Assembly: GCA_026708005.1 (NCBI GenBank)
Contig: JAPOVR010000165.1
Span: 1-38,713, forward strand
Reading direction: 5' to 3'
Origin: Actinomycetes bacterium
GTDB lineage: Bacteria; Actinomycetota; Thermoleophilia; Gaiellales; Gaiellaceae
Length of the DNA stretch: 38,713 nucleotides
The notes under the pieces are model-generated. The model ran no database searches and was not told the origin of the DNA. It saw only the letters and a list, made by a program, of their open reading frames with translations. Made by a program: the position numbers and the translations under genes. Below are positions 2,840 through 24,603 of this stretch, one piece after another. How positions within the stretch are numbered: position 1 is the first letter of the stretch; each line of letters begins with the position of its first letter.

Positions 2840-2983
2840 AACCGTCACCCCGTCCCGTCAGACCTGGATGTATAGGTGTGGTCGGCTCCGTCCGCGAACC
2901 ACTGGGTGCGTTGGCCCAGCGGAGACGGGAAGACACCGACCTTGATCACCGGTGCCGCCTGGCGGGGCGGTCCTAACTGTGGG

Positions 2984-4204
2984 CGCCAGCCGGGACACCC
3001 CCGGTGTTTGTGCAGGGGTGGGTGTGGTGGTCTGGGGTGTGGATGGACGGTAGGGGGGCTGGGTTGCGGGTCTGGCGCTAATCCTCGACCATGGGCCTGG
3101 GTCTCCCAGGGGGTGGAGAAGATCTCGCGGCCTGTGTAACCGGTCACCGCGGCTTGCCGTTGAAGCCCTGCTTGGGTGTAGCCGTTCCCCCTCTGGGGCT
3201 GCCGGGCCAGGTGAAGGGGCGGGCGGGTCCCGACGCGGTCAAGCAGGCCGGCACGGCCCGGTTGGTGAACCCGGGGTGCGTTGTCCGTCCTCGGGTGCGC
3301 GGGAGACCCTGTAGGCAATCGAACAGCTCCGTGAGGCTGGAGAGCACACTTGTCGGCCTGGATGCGCCGGGCCACCTTGATCGCTAGGAATTGCCGGGTG
3401 TACTCGTCTACCGCGGTCAGCAGCCGCAAGGGCCGCCCGCTGGTGGGTTTGGGCCGCCAACCAGACCGGGTGGGCCCAGACGTGAATTGCGGTAGGTAGG
3501 GCGCAGCCGGATCCGGGACCCGCCGGCCGGCCACAGACGGCCCCGCCTTGGGCTGTCGGCGCGGCACCCCGGGCCCCCTGCCGCCAGATGCTCCCCCACC
3601 CGCTTGCGGCTAGGCCGTCCAGCCCCCAGACCCGGCGGCAGGGCAGCGACACGGCCGATAGCCGTGACCTGCCCAAGCCCACGAGCCGGCCCCACAGTTC
3701 GCGGCCCCCCAGGGCGCCGCCCCGGCTGTCCCGGCCAACGAGCACGGCAACGCCGGCCGGGGCCGGGCTGGCCCAACACCCGGCAGGCCCCATACCACCC
3801 GGGACCGCCAACGCCCGCTGCGCCTGCGTAACGGCCCTCCGCCGACGCGTCCGGCCCCCAAAGGTCCCCTCGGCCGCTTCTCCCAGAGATCTGGTTGGCG
3901 GCCACCGCGTCGGCCACCGCCCCCGCAACCGGGCGTTCTCACCCTCCAACTGCCCCGGCCGTTTGGCCTGGGCGACCCGCATGCCACCGCATCTCCCTTA
4001 CGCCAGCGGTAGTACGTCTGCCCCTGTTACCCCCACCCCACTACAAACCCGGGCCACCGACTAATCCCTGCGCCAAGGCTACCCCGCGCCTCCCGCAGCT
4101 TGCCGATGATCCGCCCCCGCGCCTACCGCCGACGCCCCACCGCGCCCCCACCCACAACCCACACCCCCACATTGAAGGCCGACCAGACTCAGGAGGGCAG
4201 GTCA
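2984..4204 (-). mobile_element. IS3-family element, near full-length but decayed (copy B)
   Basis: This is the longest copy, about 1.2 kb. Read right to left, the right end GGGCAGGTCA (4195-4204) is the upstream terminus. OrfA follows at about 4110-3880, including a GMRVAQAKRPGQLEGENARL-like stretch. OrfB, the DDE (rve) transposase, spans about 3850-3000: RVLGQP at its start, an HVWAH/FTSGPTR block at about 3450-3490, LLTAVDEYTRQFLAIKVARR at about 3360-3430, and the end near 3000. The frame shifts at least three times, so no functional transposase can be made. The left end near 2984 is placed by alignment with copy C and is degenerate. Confidence 0.8.
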
Positions 4205-4294: not shown

Positions 4295-4323
4295 TTGACT
4301 ACCATTAGCTAATAAGCTAAAGT
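4295..4323 (+). promoter_or_regulatory. Promoter with embedded operator upstream of the XRE gene
   Basis: A -35 box TTGACT (4295-4300) and a -10 box TAAAGT (4318-4323) are separated by 17 bp. The spacer contains the perfect palindrome TTAGCT-AATA-AGCTAA (4305-4320), starting 4 bp after the -35 box and overlapping the -10. The same arrangement recurs at 5528-5556. This is the expected geometry of an autoregulated XRE repressor, here the product of the gene starting at 4364. Confidence 0.75.
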
Positions 4324-4363
4324 TCCGGCCAAGTCCGGCTAAGCCAGAGAAGGGGCGCAGGTC

Positions 4364-4720
4364 ATGGCAGAGCGATTCGGAGATACCCTCAGAAGGACCC
4401 GGCAACAGGCCGAGAAGACCCTAGGGGATGTCGCCAGGCTGTTGCACGTCTCCGTGGTCTACGTATCAGACGTGGAGCGAGGCAACCGCCGGCCCTTCAG
4501 CAACGAGCGTATCCTGAAAGTCGCGAAGTTGCTAGAGGCAGATCCAGCACCGCTGATTGCCGCGGCAGATGTCGAGAAGGGTGTTATCGAGTACGACATC
4601 TCCAAGGCCAAACCGCTGGAGGCCAGAGTTGTTGGAGATCTTGTCAGCGGTCTGGCCCGCGGCGGCGTCACGGAAGACCAGCTGGAGAGGATCAGAACCA
4701 TCCTGAAGGATTCCGAATAG
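4364..4720 (+). CDS. XRE-family HTH transcriptional regulator
   Basis: This 118-residue protein has an XRE/Cro-CI helix-turn-helix at about residues 8-60, with the recognition region around LLHVSVVYVSDVERGNRRP. The C-terminal half (65-118) is short, ends in a helical segment, and could serve in dimerisation or as a protease target. The next gene, an ImmA/IrrE metallopeptidase, starts 5 bases after the stop, so the two form a classic repressor-antirepressor pair. The palindrome at 4305-4320 inside its own promoter and the matching one at 5538-5553 are its probable operators. I infer that it represses both itself and the ubiquitin-like operon. The HTH call is firm; the regulon is inference from sequence. 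Confidence 0.9.
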   Translation: MAERFGDTLRRTRQQAEKTLGDVARLLHVSVVYVSDVERGNRRPFSNERILKVAKLLEADPAPLIAAADVEKGVIEYDISKAKPLEARVVGDLVSGLARGGVTEDQLERIRTILKDSE

Positions 4721-4724
4721 GCCC

Positions 4725-5360
4725 ATGACGATGCGGCAGGGACTAGTGGGAGTGCGTGCGGACCGCGGCTACAGCTACGAGAGGCTGGAGAAGATTGCCG
4801 CCTACGTTCGCGACCGGCTCGGTCACTCTTCGACCGAGGCGATCAATACGCTGCTGCTGTTCGACGGCCTCGACATCGAGGTGCGGGACGGAACCGGCCA
4901 GGATATCCCCTTACATGGCAGTGTGATTGAGATCAACGGTTCTGAAGGGTATGCGAAGTACGATCGGGACCGCTGCGTCATTGAGATCTTGGCGTCGCCC
5001 GAAACCTACGACTGGTTGGAGAAGGGTCACCCGCGCGGCGGTTTCTTCGTTGCCCACGAGCTGGGGCACTGCCTGCTGCACACCGATCAGCTTGTGCGGT
5101 TGGCCCAGATGCCCAAGGTGCAGCAGGCCGCGCTCCACCGCGGCGGGCAGGAGGTCGGTCACAAGACCTACCAGGACACCGAGTGGCAGGCCAACGCATT
5201 CGCCGGCGCCCTGCTGATGCCCGCCCAAGGGCTCCTGATCCTTGAGCAGGAGCACGGTGAGCTCTCACCGGACACTATCACCGAGCACTTTCAGGTCTCC
5301 GCCGAAGCTGCGGGCTACCGGCTCGAACTGTACAACGACAGGAAGGAGCAGCTGCTCTAA
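4725..5360 (+). CDS. ImmA/IrrE-family metallo-endopeptidase
   Basis: This 211-residue protein carries the zinc-protease motif HELGH (residues 111-115) within FVAHELGHCLLH. The third ligand is probably E153, in TEWQANAFAGALLMP, the conserved downstream motif of the family. ImmA/IrrE enzymes cleave a partner XRE repressor in response to a signal, as in ICEBs1 ImmA-ImmR and Deinococcus IrrE-DdrO. The gene is co-transcribed with the XRE gene just upstream. The likely role is release of repression at the two matched promoters. Because no JAB-type deubiquitinase is visible in the operon downstream, a second possible role in removing the ubiquitin-like tag deserves a test; that part is speculation. 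Confidence 0.92.
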   Translation: MTMRQGLVGVRADRGYSYERLEKIAAYVRDRLGHSSTEAINTLLLFDGLDIEVRDGTGQDIPLHGSVIEINGSEGYAKYDRDRCVIEILASPETYDWLEKGHPRGGFFVAHELGHCLLHTDQLVRLAQMPKVQQAALHRGGQEVGHKTYQDTEWQANAFAGALLMPAQGLLILEQEHGELSPDTITEHFQVSAEAAGYRLELYNDRKEQLL

Positions 5361-5527
5361 CAACGTTTCCCCGCCTCATCGGTCACGGCCCACCAGCCGA
5401 GCGGGGGTCGGAAACAGGTCCCACGGGCCACGCCCGTCACTGCCCTTCCATCACGCGGGCGCTAGGGCTCGGCCGGGGACGCTTCCGGAGGTACCTTGCG
5501 GGAGGAATCGGGTTTCCACGCAAGCCC

Positions 5528-5556
5528 TTGACAGTTCTTAGCCTTTAAGCTAACCT
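5528..5556 (+). promoter_or_regulatory. Promoter with matching operator upstream of the ubiquitin-like operon
   Basis: A consensus -35 TTGACA (5528-5533) and a -10 TAACCT (5551-5556) are separated by 17 bp. The spacer holds TTAGCCTTTAAGCTAA (5538-5553), which shares TTAGC-N5-AGCTAA with the operator at 4305-4320 and starts at the same offset, 4 bp after the -35 box. The left arm differs from a perfect palindrome at one base. This is strong evidence for shared control by the XRE regulator. Confidence 0.75.
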
Positions 5557-5630
5557 GCTAACCACGGTCTCCAACCGGGAGGCCGCGGGTCCCAGACCGC
5601 CCCCCTGACTTCAGCGAAGGAGGCTGGCTC

Positions 5631-5915
5631 ATGGTAGCAGAAGACAAGAAGCCCTACCCCATTGATGTGGAGGACCACAAGACGGTCACGATCGTCGTGG
5701 AGGGCACCCCGCACGAGTGGCCCGAGGAGTACATCACCTATGAGCAGGTGGTCACCCTCGACGTGCCCGACTACTCGCCGGACTCGCAGATCACCTACAC
5801 GGTGAAATACAAGGAAGGCCCCCGCAACAAGCCCGAGGGCACCCTCTCCCGGGGCGGCACCGTCAAGGTCGTAGAAAAAATGGTCTTCAGTGTTTCAGGA
5901 ACTGGCCAGTCATAA
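5631..5915 (+). CDS. Ubiquitin-like protein (multiubiquitin-type, single domain)
   Basis: This 94-residue protein matches the pattern of the bacterial multiubiquitin domain (PF14452-like). It has a beta-grasp start KTVTIVVEGTPHEWPEEYIT (17-36), then YEQVVTLDVPDY, ITYTVKYKEGPRNKPEGTL (54-72), and VKVVEKMVFSVSGTGQS at the end. Many relatives have tandem repeats; this one has a single domain. There is no terminal Gly-Gly: the tail is G90-T-G92-Q-S, so trimming after G92 would be needed to expose a glycine. A strong ribosome site AAGGAGG lies at 5617-5623, 7 bases before the ATG. The E1-like gene overlaps its last 26 bases, so the two are translated together. It is the presumed protein tag of the system. 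Confidence 0.85.
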   Translation: MVAEDKKPYPIDVEDHKTVTIVVEGTPHEWPEEYITYEQVVTLDVPDYSPDSQITYTVKYKEGPRNKPEGTLSRGGTVKVVEKMVFSVSGTGQS

Positions 5916-7083
5916 CGACGACTTCCGGCGGCTGCTCGAAAAGGGCTACGCGGTCGCCCTCGACAGCAATCACCTGGTTGTCCGCGACATTCCGTACCTG
6001 AACGGCGAGGGCGAGTTGCGGATAGGCACAATCGTCGCGAAGCTGGAGTTCATCGACCAGGTGCGTGTCACCCAGACGGACCACCAAGTGTTCTTCGCCG
6101 GGTCCGTACCTTATGGGTTGGACGGAAAGCCAATCCCGAATCTGGGCGGGGGTTCCACGAGCATCACTCTGAGCGAGGCCTGTAGCGACGTGGTCGTTCA
6201 GCGGTCATTCTCTAACAAGCCCATGGCCACAGGCAGGTTCGCGGACTTCTTCGACAAGGTCGAGAGCTACGTCGCAATCATCTCGGGGCCGGCGATGGAG
6301 GCTCACGGCGTCACCCCCTACACGTTCCGGTTCGTGGAGGAGGCCTCGACCGATTCGGTGTTCAAGTTCCACGACACCCTGACGAGTCGGGCGGAGATCT
6401 CGGACCTGGCCGCCAAGTTTAAGGACGACGTGATCGCCGTCATCGGCCTGGGTGGCACGGGCGCATACCTCCTGGACTTCCTGGGAAAGACGCCTGTCCG
6501 GGAGATCCGGGCATTCGACCTGGACCCCTACCACGTACACAACGCCTTCCGCTCCCCCGGCCGGCTGGAGCCCACCGAACTGGGGAAGTCAAAGGCGGCG
6601 GTCTACGGCGGCCGCTACGAGAACTTCCGCACGGGCCTGTCTGTGACGCCCGCGTTCATCGACGCGTCCTGCCATGACGAGGTGGACGGGGTCACCTTCG
6701 CATTCGTCTCCGTCGACAGAGGTTCGTCCAGAGCGGGGATCTTCGACCTGCTCATCTCGAAGGGCATTCCCTTCATCGACGTGGGGATGGGACTGAACCG
6801 CAAGAGAGGCCCCATCAACGGCCTGCTGCGCACCACCTATTACTCAGCGGCGCACGGTGAAGAGGTTAGGGAGAAAGGCCTGGCCCCGCTAACGGATGAC
6901 CCGGATGACATCTACCGGACGAACATCCAGATCAGCGAACTGAACGCTCTCAACGCATGCTTGGCTGTCATCAGGTTCAAGCAGCTCAGGGGCTTTTACT
7001 TCGAGGATGCTCCCTATTACCAACTGGTCATGGAAGTGGGCGACTGCAAGACGGCGGGCGAGCTTGAGCTTGGCGAAGATTAG
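5890..7083 (+). CDS. E1-like ThiF-family adenylyltransferase with N-terminal DUF6791 domain
   Basis: This 397-residue protein starts at GTG inside the end of the ubiquitin-like gene. Residues 8-150 match the DUF6791 region (ending near SYVAIISGPAM). Residues 178-365 form the ThiF/E1 Rossmann fold: AVIGLGGTGAYLLDFL (183-198) with the ATP-binding GLGGTG, an acidic switch FDLD (209-212), the conserved HNAFRSPGR (217-225), FVSVDRG (272-278) and FIDVGMGL (295-302). The family activates a ubiquitin-like C-terminus by adenylation. Only four cysteines are present (C98, C261, C357, C386); C261 in DASCHDE is a candidate for thioester transfer. No separate E2 gene is visible, so the N-terminal domain may take that role. 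The start could be slightly downstream. Confidence 0.88.
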   Translation: MFQELASHNDDFRRLLEKGYAVALDSNHLVVRDIPYLNGEGELRIGTIVAKLEFIDQVRVTQTDHQVFFAGSVPYGLDGKPIPNLGGGSTSITLSEACSDVVVQRSFSNKPMATGRFADFFDKVESYVAIISGPAMEAHGVTPYTFRFVEEASTDSVFKFHDTLTSRAEISDLAAKFKDDVIAVIGLGGTGAYLLDFLGKTPVREIRAFDLDPYHVHNAFRSPGRLEPTELGKSKAAVYGGRYENFRTGLSVTPAFIDASCHDEVDGVTFAFVSVDRGSSRAGIFDLLISKGIPFIDVGMGLNRKRGPINGLLRTTYYSAAHGEEVREKGLAPLTDDPDDIYRTNIQISELNALNACLAVIRFKQLRGFYFEDAPYYQLVMEVGDCKTAGELELGED

Positions 7084-7474
7084 ACTCCAGCGAGTGCACT
7101 ACATGCCGAAGGGCCTGAGTCCTGGGGTGCTCTACGTCTCGGAGGAGTTCGGCGCCGCGGCACACCGGTGCGCTTGCGGATGTGGCGAGAAAGTCTCGAC
7201 GCCCCTCGGACCCACCGAATGGTCCCTGGAGGAGACCGATGGCGGGCCGACGCTTCGCCCTTCAGTCGGCAACTGGCAGCTAGCCTGCCAATCGCACTAC
7301 CTGATCACATGCGGTGAGGTGATCTGGGCCGAGCGATGGACCGCTGAACAGATCGCCGGCGGCCGCCGCCGTGAGGAGGAGCGTCGACGCGCCTACTATG
7401 ACGCCCTCGACCGGAAACAACGAAGCATTGTGCGCAGGCTGTGGCGGTGGGTCAGCGGTCTGTTCAAGCGGTAG
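7070..7474 (+). CDS. DUF6527-family zinc-binding protein
   Basis: I place the start at TTG 7070, which gives MAKIRLQRVHYMPKGLSPGV, the usual N-terminus of this family, and overlaps the E1 gene by 14 bases; GTG 7094 or ATG 7103 are alternatives. The 134-residue product has the DUF6527 core: GVLYVSEEFGAAAH (19-32), the cysteine cluster CACGCGEKV (C34, C36, C38), PLGPTEW, RPSVGNWQLACQSHY with C73 and H76, and C81. This suggests a structural zinc site. The C-terminal 35 residues are basic and helical. DUF6527 genes are regular neighbours of DUF6791-ThiF and multiubiquitin genes. The biochemical role is unknown; an adaptor or ligase-like part in tagging is inference. Confidence 0.82.
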   Translation: MAKIRLQRVHYMPKGLSPGVLYVSEEFGAAAHRCACGCGEKVSTPLGPTEWSLEETDGGPTLRPSVGNWQLACQSHYLITCGEVIWAERWTAEQIAGGRRREEERRRAYYDALDRKQRSIVRRLWRWVSGLFKR

Positions 7475-7937
7475 GGCCAAACAACCGGTTCAGAACGGAA
7501 GAAGACTCACGGGACACGGGCACCCTGCGTTCGGCGTGGTCGATGGCCAAGTCGCCGAGCATGTAGGGCTCCGTCGGACGCGCGGCGGTGCCTAGACTGC
7601 CTCTATCGCCTCATGGGGGGCGGCCGATCTGGACAGGACAATCGCCTCGCGGCGGCGGGCCGAGGAGGCGACCGTCGGCAGCAGTACCACCTTCGAGGTG
7701 TTGTTCACCCTGTAGTAGCGCGCTCAATGACAGCGCAACCGCCATTCCTGTCAGCGAATTCGCGCTCGGGATGGATCATGCTCGTCGTGGGTGCCCTGCC
7801 GCGAGCGTTTGCCTCAACATGCGATCGTCCGGCGCAGCCCTGACGCGCCTACACGACAGTCTGGGGGAGTTATTGATGACCGACGAGACGCGCGAACTGT
7901 GATTGCTGGGCGCTGCCGCGCGGACCGCAGTTACCAC
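7475..7937. other. Intergenic stretch with a short protein-tail relic
   Basis: There is no intact gene here. A plus-strand frame without a start runs from about 7596 to a double stop TAG TAG at 7713-7718. It ends TIASRRRAEEATVGSSTTFE then VLFTL, with G/C-rich third positions, and could be the last 40 codons of a lost gene. The rest, up to IS copy C at 7938, shows nothing I can name. Confidence 0.4.
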
Positions 7938-8510
7938 TGACCTGCCTCCGGTGTTTGTGCCAGGGCTTATGTGTTGGTGGGGTGGTGTGAGCCTTCTTTG
8001 GGGTTGTAGTTGGTTGGGGGGTCACGGGCCACGAGGGTGCGGGTATGGTGGTTTCAGGTGCCGGTGGGCGGTACCCGAGGGAGCTGTGGGGGCGGGGCTG
8101 GTTGTAGGTCTGGCGCCAGCCTTCGATCAGAACCTGGGCTTCCCGGAGGGTGTAGAAGATCTCACGGCCTGTGTAGCTCGTCCCGCAGCTTGCCGTTGAA
8201 GCTCTCGACGTAGCCGTTCTCCCAGGGGCTGCCGGGCCAGGTGAAGAGCGGACGGGTACCGACGCGGCCAAGCCAGGTCCGCACGGCCCGGCAGGTGAAC
8301 CCCGGGGTGCGTTGTCCGCACGGGAGCGCGCAGCAGGCCCGTGGGAGGTTCATCCCACTGCCCTGTAGACCTGCGCCACCGACTGCTCCTACGCCAAGGC
8401 CACTTCCGCCTCCCGCAACGTGGCGATCACCCGCACCGGTGTGTGCCATCCCGCCCCCTTGACGACTCACACCCCATATGAATCGCAAACCAGCCCCAGA
8501 GGGGCAGGTT
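7938..8510 (-). mobile_element. IS3-family element, internally deleted (copy C)
   Basis: Both ends are visible: TGACCTGCC at 7938-7946 and GGGGCAGGTT at 8501-8510. Read leftward, OrfB is well preserved at its C-terminal end: FTCRAVRTWLGRVGTRPLF, then WENGYVESFNGKLRDE carrying the catalytic glutamate of the DDE triad, then GREIFYTLREAQVLIEGWR and NQPRPHSSLGYRPPAPE. About 600 bp covering OrfA and the first part of OrfB are missing, with the join near 8330-8350. One frameshift lies inside the rest. It cannot transpose by itself. No matching flanking target repeat was seen. Confidence 0.85.
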
Positions 8511-8521
8511 GCGCCGTTTTG

Positions 8522-9332
8522 CTACGTGCTTAGCCTGAGTAGGTCGGCCATCGTGATCATCGGTAGGTTCGCACCTGGGTCGGCCGCCTTCTCCGCCACC
8601 CTTCGGGTGAAGGCGGTTACTGCCGCTTCGAGAAAGCGCGTCTCCTCTGGTGTGAAATCAGTGCTGCGCCCCTCGGCTCTTCGAGCTACTTGACCACCCC
8701 TTTGCGACGAGAGCCTGCCGACCCTGTCGAGCACCTCCCTTTCTATCTGGTAGTGGTTTGCTGCCAGTGTCCGTTTGCTCCCCGTGGCTCCGGCGGCATG
8801 ACGGGCCGAACCTTCCAGCACTGTGAGGGAGAAGTAGGCCACGCTTGCTAGCGGTTCTCTTCCCTGGCGATAGAGATCGAGACGGGACAGCATGGACGAC
8901 GCGTCGGGGTCGCCAGGATCTATGGCCTGGCCCGGGGGAGGGGGGGGCAGGATACCCAGCCAGTGCCTTAGTTACTCGAACCTGCGTTTCCGGCGCCCGA
9001 AAATGGAAGGTCGCAGGGCTTGCTACTACACCCGCCGGCGTCGGTGGTGGACTGCGGTCGGTGATGTCGACTCTCGCATAAGCCAGCTTGAATTTGCCGG
9101 AGCCGGCACGTAGGGCGGCCTCAAACTCCCACCGGCGAACAAACCCTCCGAGTGCGCTCTTGGCCTCCTCCTCGGTTGCGTAGTGACTCTTCGGCTCGAC
9201 TATCACCTCGCCCTGATCCGCTCGAACACAGAACAGCTGGTCTTCATAGACCAAGGGCACAGCATCCTTGTAGTCGACTGAGTCGTCATGTGCGATGAAG
9301 TAATGGATGGCCCTTACGTGAGGGTCGTTCAT
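8522..9332 (-). pseudogene. Unrecognised protein, single frameshift at a G-run
   Basis: Two frames on the minus strand join into one protein of about 270 residues. The first (from 9332) begins MNDPHVRAIHYFIAHDDSVD and contains LVYEDQLFCVRADQGEVIVE. The second ends FTPEETRFLEAAVTAFTRRV and MITMADLLRLST, with its stop at 8522. The switch falls at the G-runs 8934-8938 and 8940-8947, where one base change restores a continuous frame; this may be a true mutation or a sequencing error. I recognise no family. The C-terminal half is helical. The gene lies alone between IS copies C and D, 11 bp from the end of copy C, in a defence-rich region, so an accessory or defence role is possible but unproven. 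Confidence 0.6.
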
Positions 9333-10590: not shown

Positions 10591-12963
10591 GTGCGGGCAG
10601 ACGTCGATAGGCTTGTCCCGGGCGCTACAGTCCGGTTCCCTGGGTTGGACGATCTTGTCGAGATCGTTTCGGTCGAGCCGGGTGAGTACTGGACGTTCAT
10701 CTATTCCGACGCTGACGATTTCGGCAGGTTGACGTTGTCGGAGGAGGAGCTCGGCGGGGTCGTCGTGGTGGAGCAGTCTGACCGGCCGATGTTTGATGGC
10801 GATCCGGGTCGGTTTCGGCTGGGGCTTGAGGCTCGAAGGGTCAGGACGGCGTTCACTTATGAGATGGCTGCGGTTGCGGTGTCGAATGTCCAGCCGTTGC
10901 CGCACCAGCTTGAGGCGGTGTACGACCAGTTTTTGCCGCAGCCTCGGCTTCGTTTCCTCCTTGCTGACGACCCTGGGGCGGGGAAGACGATCATGGCGGG
11001 CCTGTATGCGAAGGAGCTTGTGCTGCGTCGGGCTGGTGATCGCATCCTGGTTGTTGTGCCGGCGAGTTTGCGTGCGCAGTGGGCTCGCGAGCTTGATGAG
11101 CGCTTCCAGCTCTCGTTCGTCGGGATGGACGCGGCCCTCTACGGCTCCGCACCGACAGGGAATCCGTGGGATCTCCATCCTCGGGTGATCGTCTCGCGTG
11201 ACTTCCTGCGTCAGGAGCACGTGCTTGAGGCGTTCCGGGAGGCGGAGCTCCAGTGGGATCTCGCTGTCCTTGACGAGGCCCATGGCTACACGGCGTACGT
11301 TGACGGCAGGGGGTATCTGAAGAGGAGGAGCCAGCGGTACGTTGCTGCGGAGGCGGTCAGTGCCCAGGCCGACAGGTTGATTCTTATGACGGCGACGCCG
11401 CATCGCGGCAAGGACGCTGATTTCTGGGCGCTGATGCGGCTCCTTGATCCTCATGTCTTCGGTGACCGGGCCCCGAGACGGGTGGTGGTTCCGGGGCGAC
11501 TGTGGCGTCGGGTCTCGAAGGAATCGATGCGCGACATGCGGGGCCAGAGGCTTTTCAAGAAACGTCACGCTCGGACGCGCAGCGGCGAGCTGTCGCCTGC
11601 TGAGCAGGAGCTTTACGATGCTGTAACCGAGTTCGTCTCGGAGAAGCTGCGGGAGGTTCGTTCCCAGGAGGGGGCGAGGCGGAACGCGGCCGGGTTCGCG
11701 CTTACGACGATGCAGCGCCGTCTCGCATCGAGCACACGGGCGATTCGGCGAACTCTGGAGCGTCGTGTTGAGCGTATCGAGCGTGCGCTCGAGGATCCCG
11801 AGGGGTACCTGCGCTCAAAGAAGGCGTTCCAGGCCGAGGTTCTCGGAGAAGACGACCTCGATGATCTCGGCGAGCAGGAGCTGTGGCAGCGGCAGGAGGA
11901 GGCGCTGGAGGAGTGGCTGCCGCGGACGGTCGAAGAGTTGCGCGTTGAGCGGGAGCTGCTTGATCCGCTTCTCGCGCTCGCGAGCGAGGCGGAGGAGAGA
12001 CGATCCGATTGGAAGCTACGCGAGCTGCTGGACGTCGTGCAGTCAGAGGGGCTCCGGGAAGACCGCCGGAAGCAGCTGCTGATCTTCACCGAGCACAAAG
12101 ACACGCTCGACTACCTGGTTGAGGAGTTGCGCCCGGACTTCGAGGTCGCGGTCATCCACGGCGGCATGAAGCTCGGGGAGCGAATCGACCAGGAGCGGTT
12201 CTTCCGCGAGCGGGCCCAGATCCTTGTCGCCACCGAGGCGGCTGGGGAGGGTATCAACCTCCAGTTCTGCCATCTCATGGTCAACTACGACATCCCCTGG
12301 TCACCGCACCGTCTTGAGCAGCGGATGGGACGTATTCACCGTATCGGCCAGACCCGTGAGGTGCATATCTTCAATATGGTCGCGGGAAGTACTCGCGAGG
12401 GGTACGTGCTCAAGGCGCTTCTCGACAAGCTCGAGCGCATCGAGAGCACGTTCGGCGACCGGGTCTTTGACGTGATCGGCGGCATCTTCGAGGAGTACGA
12501 CCTCCGCGAGCTACTCGAGAGCGTCCTCCTGGGCGACGTGTCGGCCGAAGACGCGGCCTCGAGGATCGCCGCGAAGGAGACTGATCCCGTCGCGCTTGCC
12601 CGGGCGAACGAGCTGCTCGAGTCGGCGCTTGCGACAGACAACATCGATTGGCAGGAGCAGTCCGACCGTGCGGCAAGGGCACGCGAGCGGCGGCTCCCGC
12701 CCAGCTACTTCAAGCGGTTTCTCCTCGACGCCATTACGGTCGCCGGGGGGCAGGGCGGAGGAGCGGGTGGACAGGACCGTCCGCGTCGAGCGTACCCCCG
12801 ACACGCTGGTGGCACGAAGCCGGGTCGGCAGCGCCACCCGGAGGATCGCACCAACATATGCGCGTCTCGCATTCGACCGGGAGATCGCGATGCGGTCCCG
12901 CGAGGACGACGAGGCAACCCTGGCGGCGGCCGAGCTCTGCGGGCCAGGCCATCCCCTCTTTGA
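10591..12963 (+). CDS. SNF2/DrmD-like superfamily 2 helicase, N-terminal part (frameshifted)
   Basis: This large helicase starts at GTG with AAGGGG 7 bases upstream. Residues 1-95 are the leader domain typical of DrmD/BrxHII-like helicases (GATVRFPG, FDGDPGRFRLGLEARRVR). The motor shows motif I DPGAGKT (127-133), DEAH (228-231), TATPH (267-271), VIHGG (521-525) and ATEAAGEGINLQ with QRMGRIHRIGQT (547-588). It is thus an ATP-driven DNA translocase. Homology ends at residue 720, at the six-G run 12745-12750; the 70 residues after it are frameshift product. The true continuation is the next entry, and the joined gene (10591-13993) would give about 1134 residues. It heads an operon with a DNA methyltransferase and a DUF499 ATPase, which points to phage defence. 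Confidence 0.88.
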   Translation: MRADVDRLVPGATVRFPGLDDLVEIVSVEPGEYWTFIYSDADDFGRLTLSEEELGGVVVVEQSDRPMFDGDPGRFRLGLEARRVRTAFTYEMAAVAVSNVQPLPHQLEAVYDQFLPQPRLRFLLADDPGAGKTIMAGLYAKELVLRRAGDRILVVVPASLRAQWARELDERFQLSFVGMDAALYGSAPTGNPWDLHPRVIVSRDFLRQEHVLEAFREAELQWDLAVLDEAHGYTAYVDGRGYLKRRSQRYVAAEAVSAQADRLILMTATPHRGKDADFWALMRLLDPHVFGDRAPRRVVVPGRLWRRVSKESMRDMRGQRLFKKRHARTRSGELSPAEQELYDAVTEFVSEKLREVRSQEGARRNAAGFALTTMQRRLASSTRAIRRTLERRVERIERALEDPEGYLRSKKAFQAEVLGEDDLDDLGEQELWQRQEEALEEWLPRTVEELRVERELLDPLLALASEAEERRSDWKLRELLDVVQSEGLREDRRKQLLIFTEHKDTLDYLVEELRPDFEVAVIHGGMKLGERIDQERFFRERAQILVATEAAGEGINLQFCHLMVNYDIPWSPHRLEQRMGRIHRIGQTREVHIFNMVAGSTREGYVLKALLDKLERIESTFGDRVFDVIGGIFEEYDLRELLESVLLGDVSAEDAASRIAAKETDPVALARANELLESALATDNIDWQEQSDRAARARERRLPPSYFKRFLLDAITVAGGQGGGAGGQDRPRRAYPRHAGGTKPGRQRHPEDRTNICASRIRPGDRDAVPRGRRGNPGGGRALRARPSPL

Positions 12964-13993
12964 CGCGCTCGTGGAGTGGGTGATCGAGAACACCACCGAC
13001 GACATCCAGAAAGGCGCCGTCTTCGCGGATCCCGACGTCACCGATCCTTGCGTTTTGCATCATCTGCTCGCCGACACGGTCGACGGGAACCGCGAGCTCG
13101 TGCACCAGGCGCTCAGTCTCGCCTCGCAGCGTGGTGGCGCGCTCAGTGCAGGGGCGGGGAAGACGCTGTACGACATGATCCCGCACGAACTACCCGCGGG
13201 CGTCATTCCTCCGGGAAAGCCGGCGGAACTCGAAAACTGGGCGCGCAAGCATCTCTTTGAGGAGACGTTCCAACAGGTGAAAAGCGAACGCGAACGGATC
13301 GCGGGTGTAACCGAGAGGTTTCTTGAGGAGAGCTTTTCGGCTCTCCTGGCCGAGGCAGATCGCCAGATCCTCGGAGCGGAGGATGAGGGCGATCGCGGCG
13401 TCCCGGGGGCGCAGGGACGCGTGCGGCAGGCGGAACTCGCGAAGGAGGCCCACCGGCAGCGGCGAGACGAGCGGGTCGCGATCGCCCGGCGAAGCGGCCT
13501 CGTCAACAGAGGCCAGATCTCGCTGCTCGGCAGTGTCGTGGTCCTCCCGGCCGGTGCCGAAGCGCACGAAGAGGACGAAGAGCCGCATGAGGCTGATCCT
13601 TCCGGTCTGTCAAACGCCGAGATTGAAGCCATTGCCATGGGCGAGGCGACTCGCTACGAAACCGCCCGCGGGGCGAGGTGGGAGAGCACCGAGAAGGACG
13701 GGTGCGGCTTTGACCTCCGTTCTGTCAGCGTGAGCGATCGTCGCTGCATCGAAGTCAAAGGGCGCGCCGGGGTCGCTCAGGTCGGCCTGACCTGGCTCGA
13801 GTACCAGAAGGCGCTTGAGCTGAAGGATGAGTTCTGGCTTTACGTGGTACTCGAATGCGCGACCGCAAGCCCTCGCCTCTACCGCGTCCAGAACCCGGCC
13901 GAGCGGCTCGCCGGAGCGATCACGCCGAGCCTCGACGTCCGCTTCCAGATCAAGCCCGACCCTGTGATCAGCACTGCGGAGGTTGGGGGATGA
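12751..13993 (+). pseudogene. C-terminal part of the DrmD-like helicase with DUF3883 domain
   Basis: After the G-run at 12745-12750 the helicase continues one frame over as GGRAEERVDRTVRVERTPDT and stays open to the TGA at 13991-13993. It includes a substrate-side region (PGHPLFDALVEWVIEN), a long charged helical stretch (about 13260-13480), and a C-terminal DUF3883 domain with IEVKGRAGVAQVGLTWLEYQ followed by FWLYVVLEC. DUF3883 is a nuclease-fold-like domain found at the end of defence helicases. Removing one G makes a single gene. If the shift is real, this part would not be made or would need an internal start. The stop overlaps the methyltransferase start as ATGA. Confidence 0.78.
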
Positions 13994-16650
13994 GGCGCCT
14001 ACTCATCGAAGAGGGCCTGCCCTTCCAGGCAATCAACGAAGCATCCCATCGGGAGAAGAGCGGCAACTCGCCTGGCCACCCGCGGAGGCTCCACCTTTGG
14101 TGGGCTCGCCGACCGCTCGCGATGAGCCGCGCTCTCGTGCTCGGCTCGCTCGTTCCCGCGCCTCTAGACGATTCTGAGCGCAGGAGGATCTTCCGGGCTA
14201 TCGAGGGTTGTTCGCTCTTCAAGGATTCGGGTGTCCCGGCCCGGGTCGAGCCACTTCGCGATCTGATTCGATCGTCGTTCCCGGAGAAGCCGCCAGCCGT
14301 TCTTGACTGCTTCGCCGGCGGCGGCGCGATCCCGCTCGAGGCGCTCCGCCTAGGGGGAGACGTGACTGCCGTCGATCTCAATCCAGTCGCCTATCTGATC
14401 GAACGGTGCATGCTCGAATTCCCGCAGCGTTTCGCGACCGACGACGAGCATGGTAGGAACTCGCTGGCCGAGGATGTCCGTCGATGGGGCGAGGCAGTCG
14501 CCGATAGAGCGGCCGCGCGACTCAGCCGTGCCTTCCCGCACAGCGACGATCAAGGCAGGCCGCTCGTGTGGTTCTGGTCTCGGACGATGCCTTGCCGCAA
14601 CCCGCGGTGCCGACTGGAGATCCCGCTTGTCAAGTCATGGTGGCTCGCCCGGGGGCGGAACCGAGTCTGGCTTGAACCGATCTTCAAGGGCGATCAGAGC
14701 GACTTCGCCCTGCGAAGCGACGATGACCCGGCCGGCCGCAACCGCGACTCCGGCACTGTCAGCGCCTCGACCGTCACCTGCCCCCGCTGCTCGACGACGA
14801 TCTCGGCGGCCGATGTCCGCCGGCACGGAAAGTCCCAGCCGTTCGGGACTCGGCTCAACGCGGTGCTTGAACTCACATCCGCAGGCCGGGCATATCGCCT
14901 CCCGGCTTCGACAGACCTGGCCGGGGTTCGAGCCGCAATAGAAGCCCTGAAGGCGTGGGAGGGCGACGGATCTCTCGAATCGCCTATCCCCGATGAATTC
15001 ATCGACCCGACCAAGTACCGACGTCTCCAGAGTCTCGTGTTCGGTATTGGCCGCTACCGGGATCTGTTCACGCCCCGGCAGCTGCTGGTGCTCGCCACGA
15101 TCTCAGATGCGATCCGGGAGGCGCACCCCGAGATGCTCGACGATGGAATGGAGGAAGACCGGGCCAGGGCAGTCGCGACGTACCTGGGCCTGCTCATGGA
15201 TCGGATTGCCGACTACAACTCATCGTTCTGTTCTTGGCACCTGAGCGGGGAAAAGACAGGCCACACGTTCGCTCGCCAGTCGATACCGATGATCTGGGAC
15301 TTCACGGAGATAGACCCTTTCGCTGAAGTTCCCGGGAACTGGCGTTCGGGTCTCGCTTCGGTCACGGCTGCTATCGAGCGCTGCGCAGAGACTGGATCTG
15401 TCCCGGCGCGAGTGGTTCGCGGTAACGCCCAGGACCTATCACAATTCCCCAACGGTTCGTTCGACGCAGTCGTTGTCGATCCGCCCTACTACGACGCCGT
15501 CCAGTACGCGGACATTTCAGACTTCTTCTACGTGTGGCTGAAGCGATCCGTCGGTTTCCTCTACCCCGACCTGTTTGCCACACCTCTCACTCCGAAGGCG
15601 CAGGAAGTGATCGAGAACACAGCGGACCGGAAGAGCGATGCCTATATCTCCTCGGACGAATTCGAGCGGAGACTCGCGAGGTCGATCGCGGAGATGCGGC
15701 GTTTTGTCAAACCTGACGGTGTCGTCACGATCGTGTTTGCCCACACGGAGTCGGATGCGTGGGAGCGGCTTCTGCGCTCTCTGCTGGCCGCTGGTCTTGT
15801 TGTGTCAGCAAGCTGGCCGATGCAGTCGGAAATGGGCAGCCGGTCAACAGCGAACCTCAGTGCCGTGCTGGGCTCGTCGGTCGTTCTTGTCTGTAGACCG
15901 CGTGTGGAGACTGGGACAGTGTTCTACGACGACGTCGTCCGTGAACTCGACGAGCGGATCGGTCAGCGCCTCGACGAGTTCGAGCGGCTCGGGCTGCGCG
16001 GGGCCGATTTCCTGATCAGCGCCATAGGGCCGGCGTTCGAGGTCTTCGGCAGGTACACGGAGGTTCAGCGCCTGAACGGCGAGGCTGTGACTGTCGGAGA
16101 GCTCCTGGCGCTCGCTCGCAGAACGGTTGCCCGTCACGCGATGCGCCGACTTCTTGGCTCGGAGGCTCTCTCAGCCGTCGACGATGTCTCGCTTTTCTAT
16201 CTCACCTGGCGGTGGGCGTATGGCGCTGCACGCATCCCGGTCGACGAGGCGCAGAAGCTGGGGAAGGCGTTCAACGTTGAGGCGAACGAACTCAACGGTG
16301 TTGACGGGCCGGTCGAGACGTCGCGTCAGAGCTACAGGCTGCGTGGGCCAGACGACCGCAAACGGATCAAGCTCGGTGGGAGCCCGCCGCTGGTCGACGT
16401 CCTTCACTTGGCGTGCAAGCTGTTCGAGCAGGGGCGCCGCACGGAGCTCTCCGAGGTCCTCGCCGGATCGGGCTTCGCGGAGGAGCCCGCGTTCTGGGCT
16501 GCGGCGAGAGCGATCGCCGAGTCACTACCGGACGGTGACCGCGAACGAACCCTGCTCGTCAATCTCCTGGGCGGCCAGTCTCAGACCGTTGAGGCAGCGC
16601 GGCGGGCGGCACCCGACAATGTCCTCCGACTGTTCGAGGTGAACACATGA
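13990..16650 (+). CDS. DUF1156-containing adenine-specific DNA methyltransferase (PglX1/COG1743-like)
   Basis: The start ATG at 13990 overlaps the helicase stop (ATGA) and gives 886 residues. The N-terminal DUF1156 block reads LLIEEGLPFQAINEASHREK and then LHLWWARRPLAMSRA, with W37-W38. The SAM-binding motif is DCFAGGGAIPLEAL, starting at D106, with the acidic VDLNP after it. The catalytic motif IV is DPPY at 497-500, in VVVDPPYYDAVQYADISDFF. A cysteine cluster PCRNPRCRLEIPLVKSWW lies between them. This architecture marks N6-adenine or N4-cytosine methylases of defence islands, including BREX type 3. It presumably marks self DNA while the helicase and ATPase act on unmarked DNA. The target sequence cannot be read from the gene. 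Confidence 0.9.
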   Translation: MRRLLIEEGLPFQAINEASHREKSGNSPGHPRRLHLWWARRPLAMSRALVLGSLVPAPLDDSERRRIFRAIEGCSLFKDSGVPARVEPLRDLIRSSFPEKPPAVLDCFAGGGAIPLEALRLGGDVTAVDLNPVAYLIERCMLEFPQRFATDDEHGRNSLAEDVRRWGEAVADRAAARLSRAFPHSDDQGRPLVWFWSRTMPCRNPRCRLEIPLVKSWWLARGRNRVWLEPIFKGDQSDFALRSDDDPAGRNRDSGTVSASTVTCPRCSTTISAADVRRHGKSQPFGTRLNAVLELTSAGRAYRLPASTDLAGVRAAIEALKAWEGDGSLESPIPDEFIDPTKYRRLQSLVFGIGRYRDLFTPRQLLVLATISDAIREAHPEMLDDGMEEDRARAVATYLGLLMDRIADYNSSFCSWHLSGEKTGHTFARQSIPMIWDFTEIDPFAEVPGNWRSGLASVTAAIERCAETGSVPARVVRGNAQDLSQFPNGSFDAVVVDPPYYDAVQYADISDFFYVWLKRSVGFLYPDLFATPLTPKAQEVIENTADRKSDAYISSDEFERRLARSIAEMRRFVKPDGVVTIVFAHTESDAWERLLRSLLAAGLVVSASWPMQSEMGSRSTANLSAVLGSSVVLVCRPRVETGTVFYDDVVRELDERIGQRLDEFERLGLRGADFLISAIGPAFEVFGRYTEVQRLNGEAVTVGELLALARRTVARHAMRRLLGSEALSAVDDVSLFYLTWRWAYGAARIPVDEAQKLGKAFNVEANELNGVDGPVETSRQSYRLRGPDDRKRIKLGGSPPLVDVLHLACKLFEQGRRTELSEVLAGSGFAEEPAFWAAARAIAESLPDGDRERTLLVNLLGGQSQTVEAARRAAPDNVLRLFEVNT

Positions 16651-19436
16651 CCGAGCTTCCGGCGTGGCGTGACGTCGCCGTCCCGCGCGATGACATACAG
16701 GACGGCTCGTTCGACGAGTCGAGCTTCGCCGCTGATCTCGGTCTCGCCGCAGCGGGGCAGGGTCGGCCCGAGTACCGCGACGCCCGGCTGTTCTTCGAGC
16801 AGACCTACCTGACCCACAACCTCGCCGTCGTGCTCGACGAGCTGATCCGGCGCGTGGATGGCGACCCGGCCGCGGCAGGTGTCTACCGGATGCAGACCGA
16901 GTTCGGAGGAGGGAAGACACACACGCTCCTGAGCGCCTACCACCTCTTCAGAAGCCCAGGCGAGGTGACCGAGACAGCCTGCGGAAAGGATCTCGCGGCA
17001 CGGACGAAACGTTCGGCGTTCCCGTCCGCTCGGGTCGTTGTCCTCGACGGCTCGGCGATACTGGCGGGCCAACCGACCGAGGTCGAGCCGGGCGTCGTCG
17101 CGCACACGCTGCTAGGCCATCTCGCCTACAGACTCGGCGGCGCCGACGCTCTCGCCCGTGTCTCCGAGCAAGACGAGGGGCTTCTCGGGTCGGGCACCAC
17201 GCAGCTCTCCGCGCTGCTGCGCGACTACGCGCCTTGCGTGATCGTCCTCGATGAGGCGCTCGAGTACCTCGTCAAGGCCCTCCCTGTCCGAACGAACGAG
17301 GGCGATCTCGCAACGACGACGCTGACGCTGATCAAGGAGCTCACCACCGCGGTCGCCGGCGTCGAACGGGTCGCGCTCTTGGCGACTCTCACCTCTTCGC
17401 GGCCGGAGAGCTACTCCGAGGAGGGCGAGCGGCTGCTCGAGAGCCTTCAGAAGGTTGTCGGCCGCCAGGAGAACGTGGTGACACCAGTTGAAGGCGACGA
17501 TATCTTCCCGATCCTCGCCCGCCGCTTGTTCAAGACGCAAGGTGGCGAGGCGATCCGCCGCAAGGTGGCCGATGCGTATGCGGCCTACTATGTCGCCGAT
17601 CTCGCCGATTCCGTTCCTGCCGCGTACCGCGAGACGGGCTTCCGTGAGCGGATCGCCGCCGCATACCCGTTCCATCCCGACCTGGTCGATCTGCTGCAGA
17701 ACCGGTGGGGGTCGCTGTCGGGATTCCAGAGAACCCGTGGCGCGCTGCGCCTGCTCGGCCACACGGTCAAGGCGCTCTGGCTGACAAACACCCGGGAGCC
17801 GCTGATTCACCTCGGCGACGTGAACCTCGCGGACGCGGGAGTGCGGGGCGAGGTGCTCAAGGTCACCGGCGAGTCGTACAAGTCGGCCCTCAACGCGGAC
17901 ATCATCCGCTCCGACTCGCAGGCACCCGCAGAAGACCGAAGGCGAGGTGGCCAAGCACAACAGCTGCGAGTCGCCACCGGGCTCGCCGCAGCCGCGTTCC
18001 TCTACTCGTTCGGGCCCGACCGCGTCCTGGGAGGAAGCCAAGCCCAGATGCTCACCGCTGTCGCACGCCCCCGCCTGGGCAAAGGACTCGTCGACGACGT
18101 CCGCGACAGCCTGCGGGAGCTGCTCTGGTACGCGCGCGTCGAGGGAGGCCGGTTCCGCTTCACGACCGAACCGAACCTGAACAAACTGATCCTCGAGCGC
18201 GAGGGGGCGATCAGCGATGACCGGGTCGCCAGCACGGTCTACGAGACGCTCCGCACGGTCGCGCCGGGAACAAAGGAGCTGCGCACAGTTCACCGGATCG
18301 TCGAGTCCGGCGACCTCCCGGACGAGCCGAGACTGACGCTCGCTGTCCTCGATCTCGGCTATCGCATCGGCCCTAACGAGACCCAGGACACACTCCGGCA
18401 CGCCGAGCAGGTGCTGCTCTATCGCGGAAACGCCGGCCGTGCGAACAAGAACGCCGCGCTCCTTGTCGCCGCTGATGCGGCCGCGCTGATGCGCGCCAAG
18501 CAGACCGCACGGTCCCGGGCCGCGATCGAGGACGTGAAAGCAGACAGGGCGCGCTACAACCGGCTGAACCAGGAGCAGAAGGACGAACTCGACACTCGAG
18601 AAAAAACAACAGCAGGCCGGCTTCCCGACCAGGTCGTCATGGCCTTCCGGCACCTGCTGACGCTCGCCCCCGGAGGAACGTCAGGGCTTCAGCTACTTCA
18701 CGACGATCTCGGCCCGGCAGCCGCCAACACCCGCCTCGACGAACGTGTCACCAACCACCTGCTCGAAGCGGACCGCCTCATCACAGGCACCCTCGCCCCC
18801 GCCGCGCTCCTCACCGACCGCTTCGGCGTGTTCACGGCCAGCAGGGACGATGTCGCCCTCGAGGACCTCCGCGCCTACTTCGCCCGACAGCCGCGACTAC
18901 CCAAGCTCGGCTCCACGCTCGTCCTACAGAACTGCATCGCCCGAGGTGTCCGAGACGGCCTGTTCGGAATCGCGCTCGGAGCCAAATGGGACGCCGCAGA
19001 CTCACTCCTACGGATCGACACCGATATCACCCCAGACGAGGTCCAGTTCCAACCGGGCGTCTACCTCGTCAAAGCAGGACCGATCAGAAACGAGATCGGG
19101 AAACGAGCCCCCAGCGCCCCGATCCCGCCCTCCACCGAACCATCACCGGACGAGGGCGTGCCGCCGATCCCGCCCAAGGCAGAGATACCAGAGGCGCCAG
19201 CCTCCCCAAGGGGGCCAGCCAAAGTCCGAGTCGCGCTCACGAAAGTCCCGGCAGACAGAGTCCGCGACGTGCTCAAAGTGGCGGTACTACCGCTGGCCAC
19301 AACCGGCTCCACAGTAGAAGTCGACATGCTCATCAAGGCGAACTCCGAGACCGGGATCCCCAGTGAAACACTTGACCTGACCGTCACCGAAGGACTCCGC
19401 CAACTAGGAATCGAATTCGACATCGACAAACCGTAG
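16647..19436 (+). CDS. DUF499-family AAA+ ATPase
   Basis: This 929-residue protein starts at ATG 16647, overlapping the methyltransferase stop (ATGA), so the three genes are translationally coupled. The Walker A loop is EFGGGKTHTLLSAYHL, with GGGKTH at 87-92. The Walker B is CVIVLDEALEYL, with DEA at 203-205. ALLATLTSSRPESY near 246-259 and the AAYPFHPDLVDLLQNRW segment are also typical of DUF499/COG1483. A proline-rich linker (about 825-865) precedes a C-terminal beta-rich module. DUF499 ATPases regularly pair with DUF1156 methylases and are related to BrxC/PglY of BREX. The likely role is an ATP-dependent sensor or assembly factor of the defence complex. Confidence 0.9.
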   Translation: MTELPAWRDVAVPRDDIQDGSFDESSFAADLGLAAAGQGRPEYRDARLFFEQTYLTHNLAVVLDELIRRVDGDPAAAGVYRMQTEFGGGKTHTLLSAYHLFRSPGEVTETACGKDLAARTKRSAFPSARVVVLDGSAILAGQPTEVEPGVVAHTLLGHLAYRLGGADALARVSEQDEGLLGSGTTQLSALLRDYAPCVIVLDEALEYLVKALPVRTNEGDLATTTLTLIKELTTAVAGVERVALLATLTSSRPESYSEEGERLLESLQKVVGRQENVVTPVEGDDIFPILARRLFKTQGGEAIRRKVADAYAAYYVADLADSVPAAYRETGFRERIAAAYPFHPDLVDLLQNRWGSLSGFQRTRGALRLLGHTVKALWLTNTREPLIHLGDVNLADAGVRGEVLKVTGESYKSALNADIIRSDSQAPAEDRRRGGQAQQLRVATGLAAAAFLYSFGPDRVLGGSQAQMLTAVARPRLGKGLVDDVRDSLRELLWYARVEGGRFRFTTEPNLNKLILEREGAISDDRVASTVYETLRTVAPGTKELRTVHRIVESGDLPDEPRLTLAVLDLGYRIGPNETQDTLRHAEQVLLYRGNAGRANKNAALLVAADAAALMRAKQTARSRAAIEDVKADRARYNRLNQEQKDELDTREKTTAGRLPDQVVMAFRHLLTLAPGGTSGLQLLHDDLGPAAANTRLDERVTNHLLEADRLITGTLAPAALLTDRFGVFTASRDDVALEDLRAYFARQPRLPKLGSTLVLQNCIARGVRDGLFGIALGAKWDAADSLLRIDTDITPDEVQFQPGVYLVKAGPIRNEIGKRAPSAPIPPSTEPSPDEGVPPIPPKAEIPEAPASPRGPAKVRVALTKVPADRVRDVLKVAVLPLATTGSTVEVDMLIKANSETGIPSETLDLTVTEGLRQLGIEFDIDKP

Positions 19437-22749: not shown

Positions 22750-24603
22750 TCAGTCGGTGATGTGTTCCAAAGCCAAACTGTCTTCCTGCACGAGCTCGTA
22801 CTCTGCAGGTCCCTCGTCAGGCTCCTCGATCTCGTCGGGAAAGGTTTGTTTGCCCATCGCTTTTCTAACCGTGCCGAGAAGTGCCGACTCCCGAGCGTCG
22901 AAGAATCCGTCGAAATCGTTGGCCCAGACATGCGCAGGGTCGACGAGATGCGACCGCAGGTAGCCATCCAGGACGTCCCCGGGAATACCTTCCGAGGTGA
23001 TCCGCTCGAGGTATTCGCTAGGGGACCGGCCGCCTATGCTGCGGTTGGTTCGCGCCGTCAGCGGCGTCTTGTTAACGATCGAGTCGCACCGCTGGGGCTC
23101 AATGGCGTACCAGCGGCACCATTGCTGCGGGAAGATGTGGTGGATGTCGATGCTCTCATCGAAGTACCCCTGTATCGACGACTCCTCGCCTGTCATCAGG
23201 TCACGGGCGCCTTCGCGCAATAGCAGCGCGTAGATTCCCTTGTAGGCGGCGCTGTTGCGCGTGCGAAGCGTCAGCAGTCGGGCGGGAGCGAACTCTGCGT
23301 CGTAGATGGTCCCTGGCTCCTTCCCCCCGTCCCGTACCCAGGCCAGGACTTCGGGGAGGTCCCGGGCGAACCGTGTCTCGGTTGCGCCTCCGTAGAGTTC
23401 CCCGAGCACTCCGCACCAGTACCACCGCGCGAGCTTCTCCCTGGCAGGGTGCGGCTCCCACTCCCTACCCATGACCGTGAGGATCGCCGCCAGCGGGACC
23501 AGCTGGCTTCCGTACGGCAGAAACTGCACGTCATACAAGTGCTGCGAATGGAGGAACCGCGCAGCCGCCTGGAAGCCGTCAAGTAGCGGGTCAGCCCACC
23601 GTTGGTACTCGTTCAGCTCCAGCCGCAGCGTATCCGCGCGCTTACAGCTGACCCCTGGTGCCCTGTCCTCGTCCGTCCCATTGTGCAGAGCGGCGTTTCG
23701 GCGCTCCAAGGAGGCGAGCAGCGTCGCGGCCTGAAGGAAATCCGTGTTGGACACTCCAGACAGGATCGAACGGGAGTGGATGGCACGCTTCCGCTCCTCC
23801 CAATCCGGTCGCAAGTGAAAGTCGTCGGCCGCGAATGTGGCTGTCAGCAGCTCGAACACTGTCAGGGTCACACCGCCGGTGTTCACGTTCTCAAACACCT
23901 GGCAGACCGCCTCCTTCGGTGTATCCTTCCCAAGCTCGATCACCGGCACCTGGTACTGCTCGAAGCGCGTGATCACCTTCTCGTCAAACTCGTTCCACAA
24001 CTCGATCTTCTCTTCGTCGTAACCCCAGAATCGCTCGAAGTCCACCCGCCACCTCCGGGAATCAAATGCCTTGGAGAGCGGGAAAAGCATCGCCTGGTAC
24101 TCCCGCTCAGGCGTCGAGTAGTCCTCCACGACGTCCCGACCGAATCGCGTGATCTGCCGCTTCTCAGGCAACGAAACGATCGCCTCTTCGCGATCGGCAC
24201 TCTCATCGAGCGATAGCCGCATGTCGATGTAGTACCACCGCCTGATGGCACGCCCCCGCTGATCGGTAGTCAGCACCGGCCGATCAAGACGAAGAGACTG
24301 AAACAGTGACGTGAGCCGCTGCTGACCGTCCAAGATCAACCGGTCAGCCTCCCGACCGGATGGCGGCGACGCACCCTCCAAAGGGCGCTCCCTGAAACGA
24401 ACAGTCTCACCGCCCGCCTCGAGCATCATCACAGCACCGATCGGATACCCAAGAGAGACGCTCGCAAGTAGCTTCCGAACGCGCTCGTCGTCCCAAACCC
24501 ACCCCCGCTGGAAATCAGGCAGCTGCGAACTCCCATCCGCCGCCTCCCCGAGCAGCCCGTCGAGTGACTCCTTCTCAATGCCATACTCCGCTACGTTCAT
24601 CAC
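22750..24603 (-). CDS. GmrSD-type type IV restriction enzyme (DUF262 plus HNH)
   Basis: This 617-residue protein fuses both halves of the GmrSD family. The N-terminal DUF262 (GmrS-like, NTP-using) domain shows LPDFQRGWVWDDERVRKLL (28-46), ILDGQQRLTSLF (90-101) and the conserved VFENVNTGGVTLTVFELL (236-253). The C-terminal DUF1524/HNH nuclease domain shows IDIHHIFPQQW (485-495) and NKTPLTARTNRSIGGRSPSE (511-530). Such enzymes cut modified phage DNA (glucosylated hydroxymethylcytosine for the founding GmrSD) or act as BREX-linked partners such as BrxU. Here it sits beside the methylase/helicase/ATPase operon on the other strand, so it may give complementary cover against modified phages. The real substrate is unknown. 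The start is one of two adjacent ATGs at 24603 and 24600. Confidence 0.92.
   Translation of the reverse strand: MMNVAEYGIEKESLDGLLGEAADGSSQLPDFQRGWVWDDERVRKLLASVSLGYPIGAVMMLEAGGETVRFRERPLEGASPPSGREADRLILDGQQRLTSLFQSLRLDRPVLTTDQRGRAIRRWYYIDMRLSLDESADREEAIVSLPEKRQITRFGRDVVEDYSTPEREYQAMLFPLSKAFDSRRWRVDFERFWGYDEEKIELWNEFDEKVITRFEQYQVPVIELGKDTPKEAVCQVFENVNTGGVTLTVFELLTATFAADDFHLRPDWEERKRAIHSRSILSGVSNTDFLQAATLLASLERRNAALHNGTDEDRAPGVSCKRADTLRLELNEYQRWADPLLDGFQAAARFLHSQHLYDVQFLPYGSQLVPLAAILTVMGREWEPHPAREKLARWYWCGVLGELYGGATETRFARDLPEVLAWVRDGGKEPGTIYDAEFAPARLLTLRTRNSAAYKGIYALLLREGARDLMTGEESSIQGYFDESIDIHHIFPQQWCRWYAIEPQRCDSIVNKTPLTARTNRSIGGRSPSEYLERITSEGIPGDVLDGYLRSHLVDPAHVWANDFDGFFDARESALLGTVRKAMGKQTFPDEIEEPDEGPAEYELVQEDSLALEHITD

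Follow-up and report, generated by a model that had tools for sequence, protein, structure and literature searches.

A C-terminal glycine is the usual hallmark of ubiquitin-like proteins (Ubls), which are normally relayed from cysteine to cysteine. The closest described relatives of the locus considered here are the Bub operons (e.g., Citrobacter BubA-BubB-BubCD, PDB 9ea4-9eav), with which it shares a multiubiquitin-family Ubl, a ThiF-fold E1 and a DUF6527 partner. The locus is a five-gene operon (positions 4364-7474) in a stretch of 38,713 nt, called the window below, which is contig JAPOVR010000165.1 of the Actinomycetes bacterium assembly GCA_026708005.1 (3.7 Mb, 92.67% complete). It encodes, in order, an XRE regulator, an ImmA/IrrE (M78) metallopeptidase, a Ubl, a DUF6791-ThiF E1-like protein and a DUF6527 protein. 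All frames are open, and Pfam profiles confirm all five genes on the + strand, in the single direction given by a first-pass annotation; as that annotation also stated, there is no separate E2 or JAB gene among them. Compared with Bub, the operon has no BubB-like E2, it has DUF6791 instead of JAB, its Ubl ends in Ser and not Gly, and its type of E1 is without three cysteines typical of Bub-type E1s. The gene order and regulation are of kinds already known; on the best reading of the sequences, operons with a serine tail and with neither E2 nor JAB form a distinct variant and a sister type of Bub, for which we claim no priority.

Of 11 Bub-type regions examined, 9 have an annotated DUF6527 gene and several an ImmA/IrrE gene upstream. 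A second set of relatives, the type 6e operons, was described in 2006, including an E1 with another N-terminal domain replacing JAB and a solo Ubl (Iyer, Burroughs and Aravind, PMC1779556). Type 6e operons without JAB have in common with the window operon a non-JAB N-terminal domain on the E1, one to three Ubl repeats (here one) and a partner that binds metal (here a predicted zinc protein whose Cys/His pattern is similar but not identical); the identity of DUF6791 with the paper's 'domain X' is unconfirmed. The portions of that account drawn on here make no mention of the tail, cysteine and operator features set out below, and list an inactive E2/RWD-like gene or domain, either fused to the Ubl or separate, whereas a profile search found no Prok-E2_E in the window operon or its assembly (92.67% complete). 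Finally, ThiF, MccB and PaaA have the ThiF-fold adenylation domain and act on a protein or peptide terminus, but the window E1 differs in its additional DUF6791 domain and in its genetic association with a multiubiquitin-type Ubl and DUF6527.

We lean towards the interpretation that the locus is a DNA-damage-inducible Ubl modification system, in which the peptidase would cleave the repressor, and the E1 would activate the Ser tail and transfer the Ubl to proteins with neither a cysteine thioester nor a separate E2. Phage defence or a damage response is its likely role.

Conservation of the operon

Of 8,000 candidates scored against the E1-like protein, 6,481 match at E ≤ 0.001, and DUF6791 and ThiF are both present in all 120 of the matches listed. 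A scan of genome records gave at least 576 relatives, of which the best 80 loci were used for neighbourhood counts; these include two pairs with identical E1s and come from Acidimicrobiia, Bacteroidota, Alphaproteobacteria, Planctomycetota, a cyanobacterium and others. The Ubl gene is directly 5′ of the E1-like gene in all 80 loci, and a DUF6527 gene follows downstream in 78. An M78 gene is located within 4 kb upstream in 59 loci (75 with room), compared with a single downstream case (71 with room). Because the neighbourhood is conserved in relatives, the grouping of the five genes is not chance. The first-pass annotation called the arrangement unusual, a view that is not supported; nor is its proposal refuted by the absence of a conserved neighbourhood in other genomes, as the neighbourhood is kept across loci of many phyla.

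The M78 genes are mostly divergent from the Ubl operon (49/60), and 11/60 have the same direction as in the window, although both the 60 and the 11 include one false UvrD match, at locus L086, that was later discounted. HExxH is present in 57 of the 60 candidates; with the window and a second copy from the same genome included, a Pfam M78 match is found in 58 of 61, and residues E112, H115 and E153 are invariant across the 61 aligned candidates. At loci without M78, the CapW-type domain WYL occurs in 5 of 60 upstream proteins (among the first 25 of 32 families listed). One protein encoded upstream of a Ubl gene, at L052:4651-5760(-), is an HTH protein with HELGH that is missed by the M78 profile, and is a candidate fused repressor-peptidase. 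Downstream, no E2 or JAB family is among the first 25 of 138 families listed for 132 proteins.

The operon order recurs under NCBI names on five annotated plasmids, three of which include a gene named ImmA/IrrE. The window E1 matches 115 of 72,556 plasmid records, 45 of them from Acinetobacter, and none of 50,697 phage records.

A serine-ending Ubl

The Ubl gene (5631-5915) encodes one multiubiquitin-type domain (Multi_ubiq, PF14452; E=3.5e-13) and ends in the tail T-G-Q-S (codons 5901-5912). The only profile hit up to E=1 is 9cd2 (E=9.2e-19), and no chain named BubA is among the hits. Ser stands at the exact end of 79 of 80 intact Ubls. In the Ubls of E2/JAB (Bub-type) operons, by contrast, 17 of 18 have a Gly end, or TEG or NPG plus an extension. 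As the Ubl carries no extension, it should not require a JAB in order to mature; a maturation protease would be dispensable, the Ubl being made with its final residue exposed. Among the papers searched, none mentions DUF6791, DUF6527 or 'multiubiquitin domain-containing', although no search was aimed at the serine tail in words; two papers that cite the Bub work were found.

The tail lies within a 26-nt overlap between the Ubl and E1 genes, and an artefact of this overlap was considered as the source of its conservation. This explanation was rejected: the E1 residues of the overlapping frame vary (S in 51/75, H in 51/75, N in 71/75), whereas the Ubl Ser does not (79/80).

An E1-like protein without invariant cysteine

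The E1-like gene (5890-7083) matches DUF6791 (1.2e-43; domain at 5920-6378 by Pfam profile) and ThiF (2.6e-6), the latter at 27.2 bits, slightly below the Pfam cut-off of 28.1. Its ThiF-fold adenylation domain conserves GxGGTG and Asp276, which presumably have catalytic roles. No cysteine is invariant in 87 aligned relatives. Three of the four Bub-type cysteines are missing from the family and all four from the window protein, which has Ser at the position of the fourth, where 74 of 87 relatives have Cys.

The N-terminal region gives only DUF6791 in a Pfam scan to E=10, whereas the Bub-type E1 of locus L117 gives Prok-JAB there. Residues H65, S108, K110, K123 and Y127 of DUF6791 are invariant, and the AlphaFold topology of the domain (5890-6354), consisting of a helix, strands, a loop and a helix, recalls UBC/RWD.

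An adenylation fold of the BubCD kind is present in the E1, although in the profile comparison the match to BubCD is confined to residues 173-304, and other fold matches include PaaA, MccB and ThiF. A rival possibility is that the Ubl is modified without any protein being tagged. The E1 might adenylate or cyclise the Ubl tail itself, as MccB or ThiF do to a peptide or carrier, and the modified small protein would then be an effector or a carrier of sulfur or nucleotide. An operon with neither E2 nor JAB, an E1 without invariant cysteine and the resemblance to these enzymes would all suit such a scheme, as would a conserved non-glycine terminus, which is appropriate for peptide-end chemistry (MccB acts on a C-terminal Asn). 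However, Ubl and DUF6527, both partners of the Bub type, are kept in the operon, and BubCD is as good a match for the ThiF domain as ThiF is; we regard this main rival as rather unlikely.

Another scenario is an ordinary Bub or type 6e system whose E2 and JAB are supplied by genes at other sites in the genome. Two Prok-JAB matches are indeed present on other contigs of the assembly. In addition, Marivita has a complete Bub-type operon and a DUF6791-type operon, evidently on one contig. Against this scenario stand the lack of a Prok-E2_E match in the window's own assembly, the small number of carrier genomes with one above cut-off (7 of 80), and the fact that Ubl tails and E1 cysteines differ by type, all of which make it quite improbable. 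The E2_E protein of locus L111 matches Citrobacter BubB (1.2e-14). In Marivita geojedonensis (L028, L108), the Bub-type operon (Ubl, E2, JAB-E1, DUF6527) would be ~10 kb from the DUF6791-type operon if the contigs (both 102,872 bp, evidently one) join.

DUF6527

The fifth gene (7070-7474; DUF6527, 3.7e-23) encodes a predicted zinc protein. Its start is probably the TTG at 7070, giving 134 residues, and not that of the longer open reading frame from 7007, because 134 residues is the length of its relatives; with this start, the E1 and DUF6527 genes overlap by 14 nt. Residues C34, C36, C38, C73 and H76 are invariant in 65 sequences. The pattern C34-x3-C38-x34-C73-x2-H76, together with C36 and H32, resembles the type 6e string C-x3-C-x35-38-H-x2-C but is not identical to it, and a fold search gave no recognised fold match. 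One passage of the 2006 account (PMC1779556) proposes that the zinc-finger protein of such operons chooses targets.

Proposed chemistry

Under the modification system that we favour, the E1 would make a Ubl-adenylate at the terminal Ser. DUF6791, in the place that JAB holds in BubCD, may position the acceptor and help in the transfer, and DUF6527 may recruit or select the targets. More tentatively, and with greater doubt than the proposal as a whole, we suggest that this is a Ubl pathway with its own chemistry: a ready-made Ser tail and a one-piece, cysteine-free E1 with a DUF6791 transfer domain would unite activation and ligation in one enzyme, with no E2, thioester or maturation protease, and the pathway would be switched by repressor cleavage. 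If there is such a widespread Ser-ending class, in which neither cysteine nor E2 is needed, it would show how little a conjugation system requires, and substitution of the terminal Ser with Gly or Ala would be a clean test of the last residue's role.

Several points weigh against the favoured modification system. The best 80 loci are best matches and hence biased to close relatives, M78 was not found in about one quarter of them, and 3 of the 60 M78 candidates are without HExxH by pattern. The T at position -4 of the Ubl is not universal (ADKS in the second copy of this genome, ANRS in L127). The Ubl and E1 genes overlap in 72 of 81 loci, so that the tail may in part reflect the E1 reading frame; six loci with intact, non-overlapping genes also end in TGQS, but all are from Bacteroidota. 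E1 position 274 is Cys in 74 of 87 relatives, and a cysteine role is possible elsewhere in the family. With the assembly 92.67% complete and two Prok-JAB matches on other contigs, a trans-acting E2 or JAB is possible. Finally, DUF6791 failed as a hidden E2: when 87 DUF6791 and 17 E2_E sequences were compared by HHalign, probabilities stayed below 3% (0.1-2.6%; E 0.018-0.54) across five settings, one of which aligned just 2 columns, and with 75 rows the values were 0.5% against E2_E and 0.2% against JAB.

Probable regulation by a repressor and a peptidase

The XRE gene (4364-4720; HTH_31, E=3.8e-13) has a predicted CapH-like role, and the CapP-like M78 gene (4725-5360; Peptidase_M78, 6.5e-15) retains HELGH and Glu153. 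Upstream of the regulator, a promoter scan returned the -35-like hexamer TTGACT (4295-4300; 9/12 consensus matches), and a pattern search located operator 1, TTAGC-N6-GCTAA (4305-4320), a predicted repressor site between -35 and -10. The 270-nt gap between the M78 and Ubl genes also contains a promoter-like region, with the -35-like hexamer TTGACA (5528-5533, by sequence reading; not returned by the scan), operator 2 of the same pattern (5538-5553, by pattern search) and an overlapping second site, TAAGC-N6-GCTAA (5546-5561). All of these elements are on the + strand. Each operator starts 10 nt past the start of its TTGAC(T/A) hexamer and extends to the -10 region.

The window has two TTAGC-N6-GCTAA sites against 0.01 expected. 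Across the whole assembly the pattern occurs only at these two promoters; a reversed control pattern has four sites, so the operator pattern is not one that chance makes rare. The striking point is the location of the two sites of the assembly, both of them in promoters of this operon. Taken alone, the promoter scan is weak evidence and counts against our interpretation, as it gave one promoter (the first) where 0.7 were expected. At locus L008 (Acidimicrobiia; E1 85% identical), the identical 16-mer lies 5′ of the XRE gene, and 5′ of the Ubl gene are two sites that overlap, one of which has TAAGC; none of the operator sites was seen at L015, another same-direction locus. Because the operator is common to both promoters, and is also found in L008, it is likely that XRE represses both promoters, presumably by binding both sites. 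The earlier idea of a self-regulated operon is supported by this shared sequence, and the operator pair lends itself to a direct reporter test of the regulation.

The arrangement parallels CapH+CapP, first described on CBASS, in which an HTH (helix-turn-helix) gene and then an M78 gene likewise adjoin the operon promoter, next to a defence-type operon, and the zincin active site (HELGH) is also shared. PADLOC gives a capP match for the M78 protein (3.8e-14); for the regulator, capH is weak (2.9e-4) and HTH_VI better (4.4e-7). As reported in the parts of PMC13373217 drawn on here, CapP is a peptidase that cleaves CapH once single-stranded DNA has activated it, and gating by CapW or CapH+CapP is found in 219 of 544 Bub operons. 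Here the pair is predicted to guard a Ubl operon and not CBASS; since such gating is already in print for Bub, the first impression that the protease control is unusual is not supported. By analogy with CapP, the peptidase may sense single-stranded DNA and then cleave the XRE repressor, turning the operon on.

XRE+ImmA pairs occur on mobile elements in general, and the pair could in principle be an independent addiction or mobile-element module that is beside the Ubl genes by chance. The same-direction order is in the minority (11/60, one of them false), as might suit such a module. This explanation is most improbable, however, given the confinement of the operator, within the assembly, to the two promoters, the excess of upstream over downstream M78 genes (59/80 against 1/80), and the XRE and M78 genes of the second genomic copy.

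Second copy and genomic setting

The second copy, on contig C25 of the same assembly (locus L004, G000:C25:80000-97000, 5496-9064), is a diverged Ubl-E1-DUF6527 set whose E1 is 31-33% identical to that of the window and whose XRE and M78 genes are divergent. Next to it lie genes for an AAA_5 ATPase and a McrC-type protein. The DUF6527 frame of this copy is broken, the in-frame match being profile positions 2-23 of 63. Because DUF6791 is found in just 6 of 399 genomes drawn as relatives (own genome included), the two operon sets of this genome were probably acquired horizontally and separately.

The first-pass annotation placed the window operon between two insertion sequence (IS) copies. Flanking elements are present, but they are not intact: both are decayed IS3-type integrase remnants on the - strand, at 2845-3567 (rve fragment, E=1.7e-4, below cut-off) and 7870-8271 (rve_3, E=1.3e-11), which are 80.7% identical across 249 bp. 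With remnants on both sides and a broken frame in the second copy, the cluster might be an inactive relic stranded between decayed elements. This is very unlikely, as the five window frames are open, their motifs are intact and the order is kept in relatives.

Beyond the remnants, an HmaA-HmaB-HmaC-like defence set lies downstream (10591-19436), with HmaA spread over two reading frames, and type IV restriction-like GmrSD genes lie on both sides (1910-2839 and 22750-24603, encoding C-terminal and N-terminal domain proteins, respectively). The surroundings thus look like a defence island, which supports, without showing, an anti-phage role. Together with the PADLOC capP match, these defence-type neighbours agree with the inducible stress or defence response that had been proposed at the outset.

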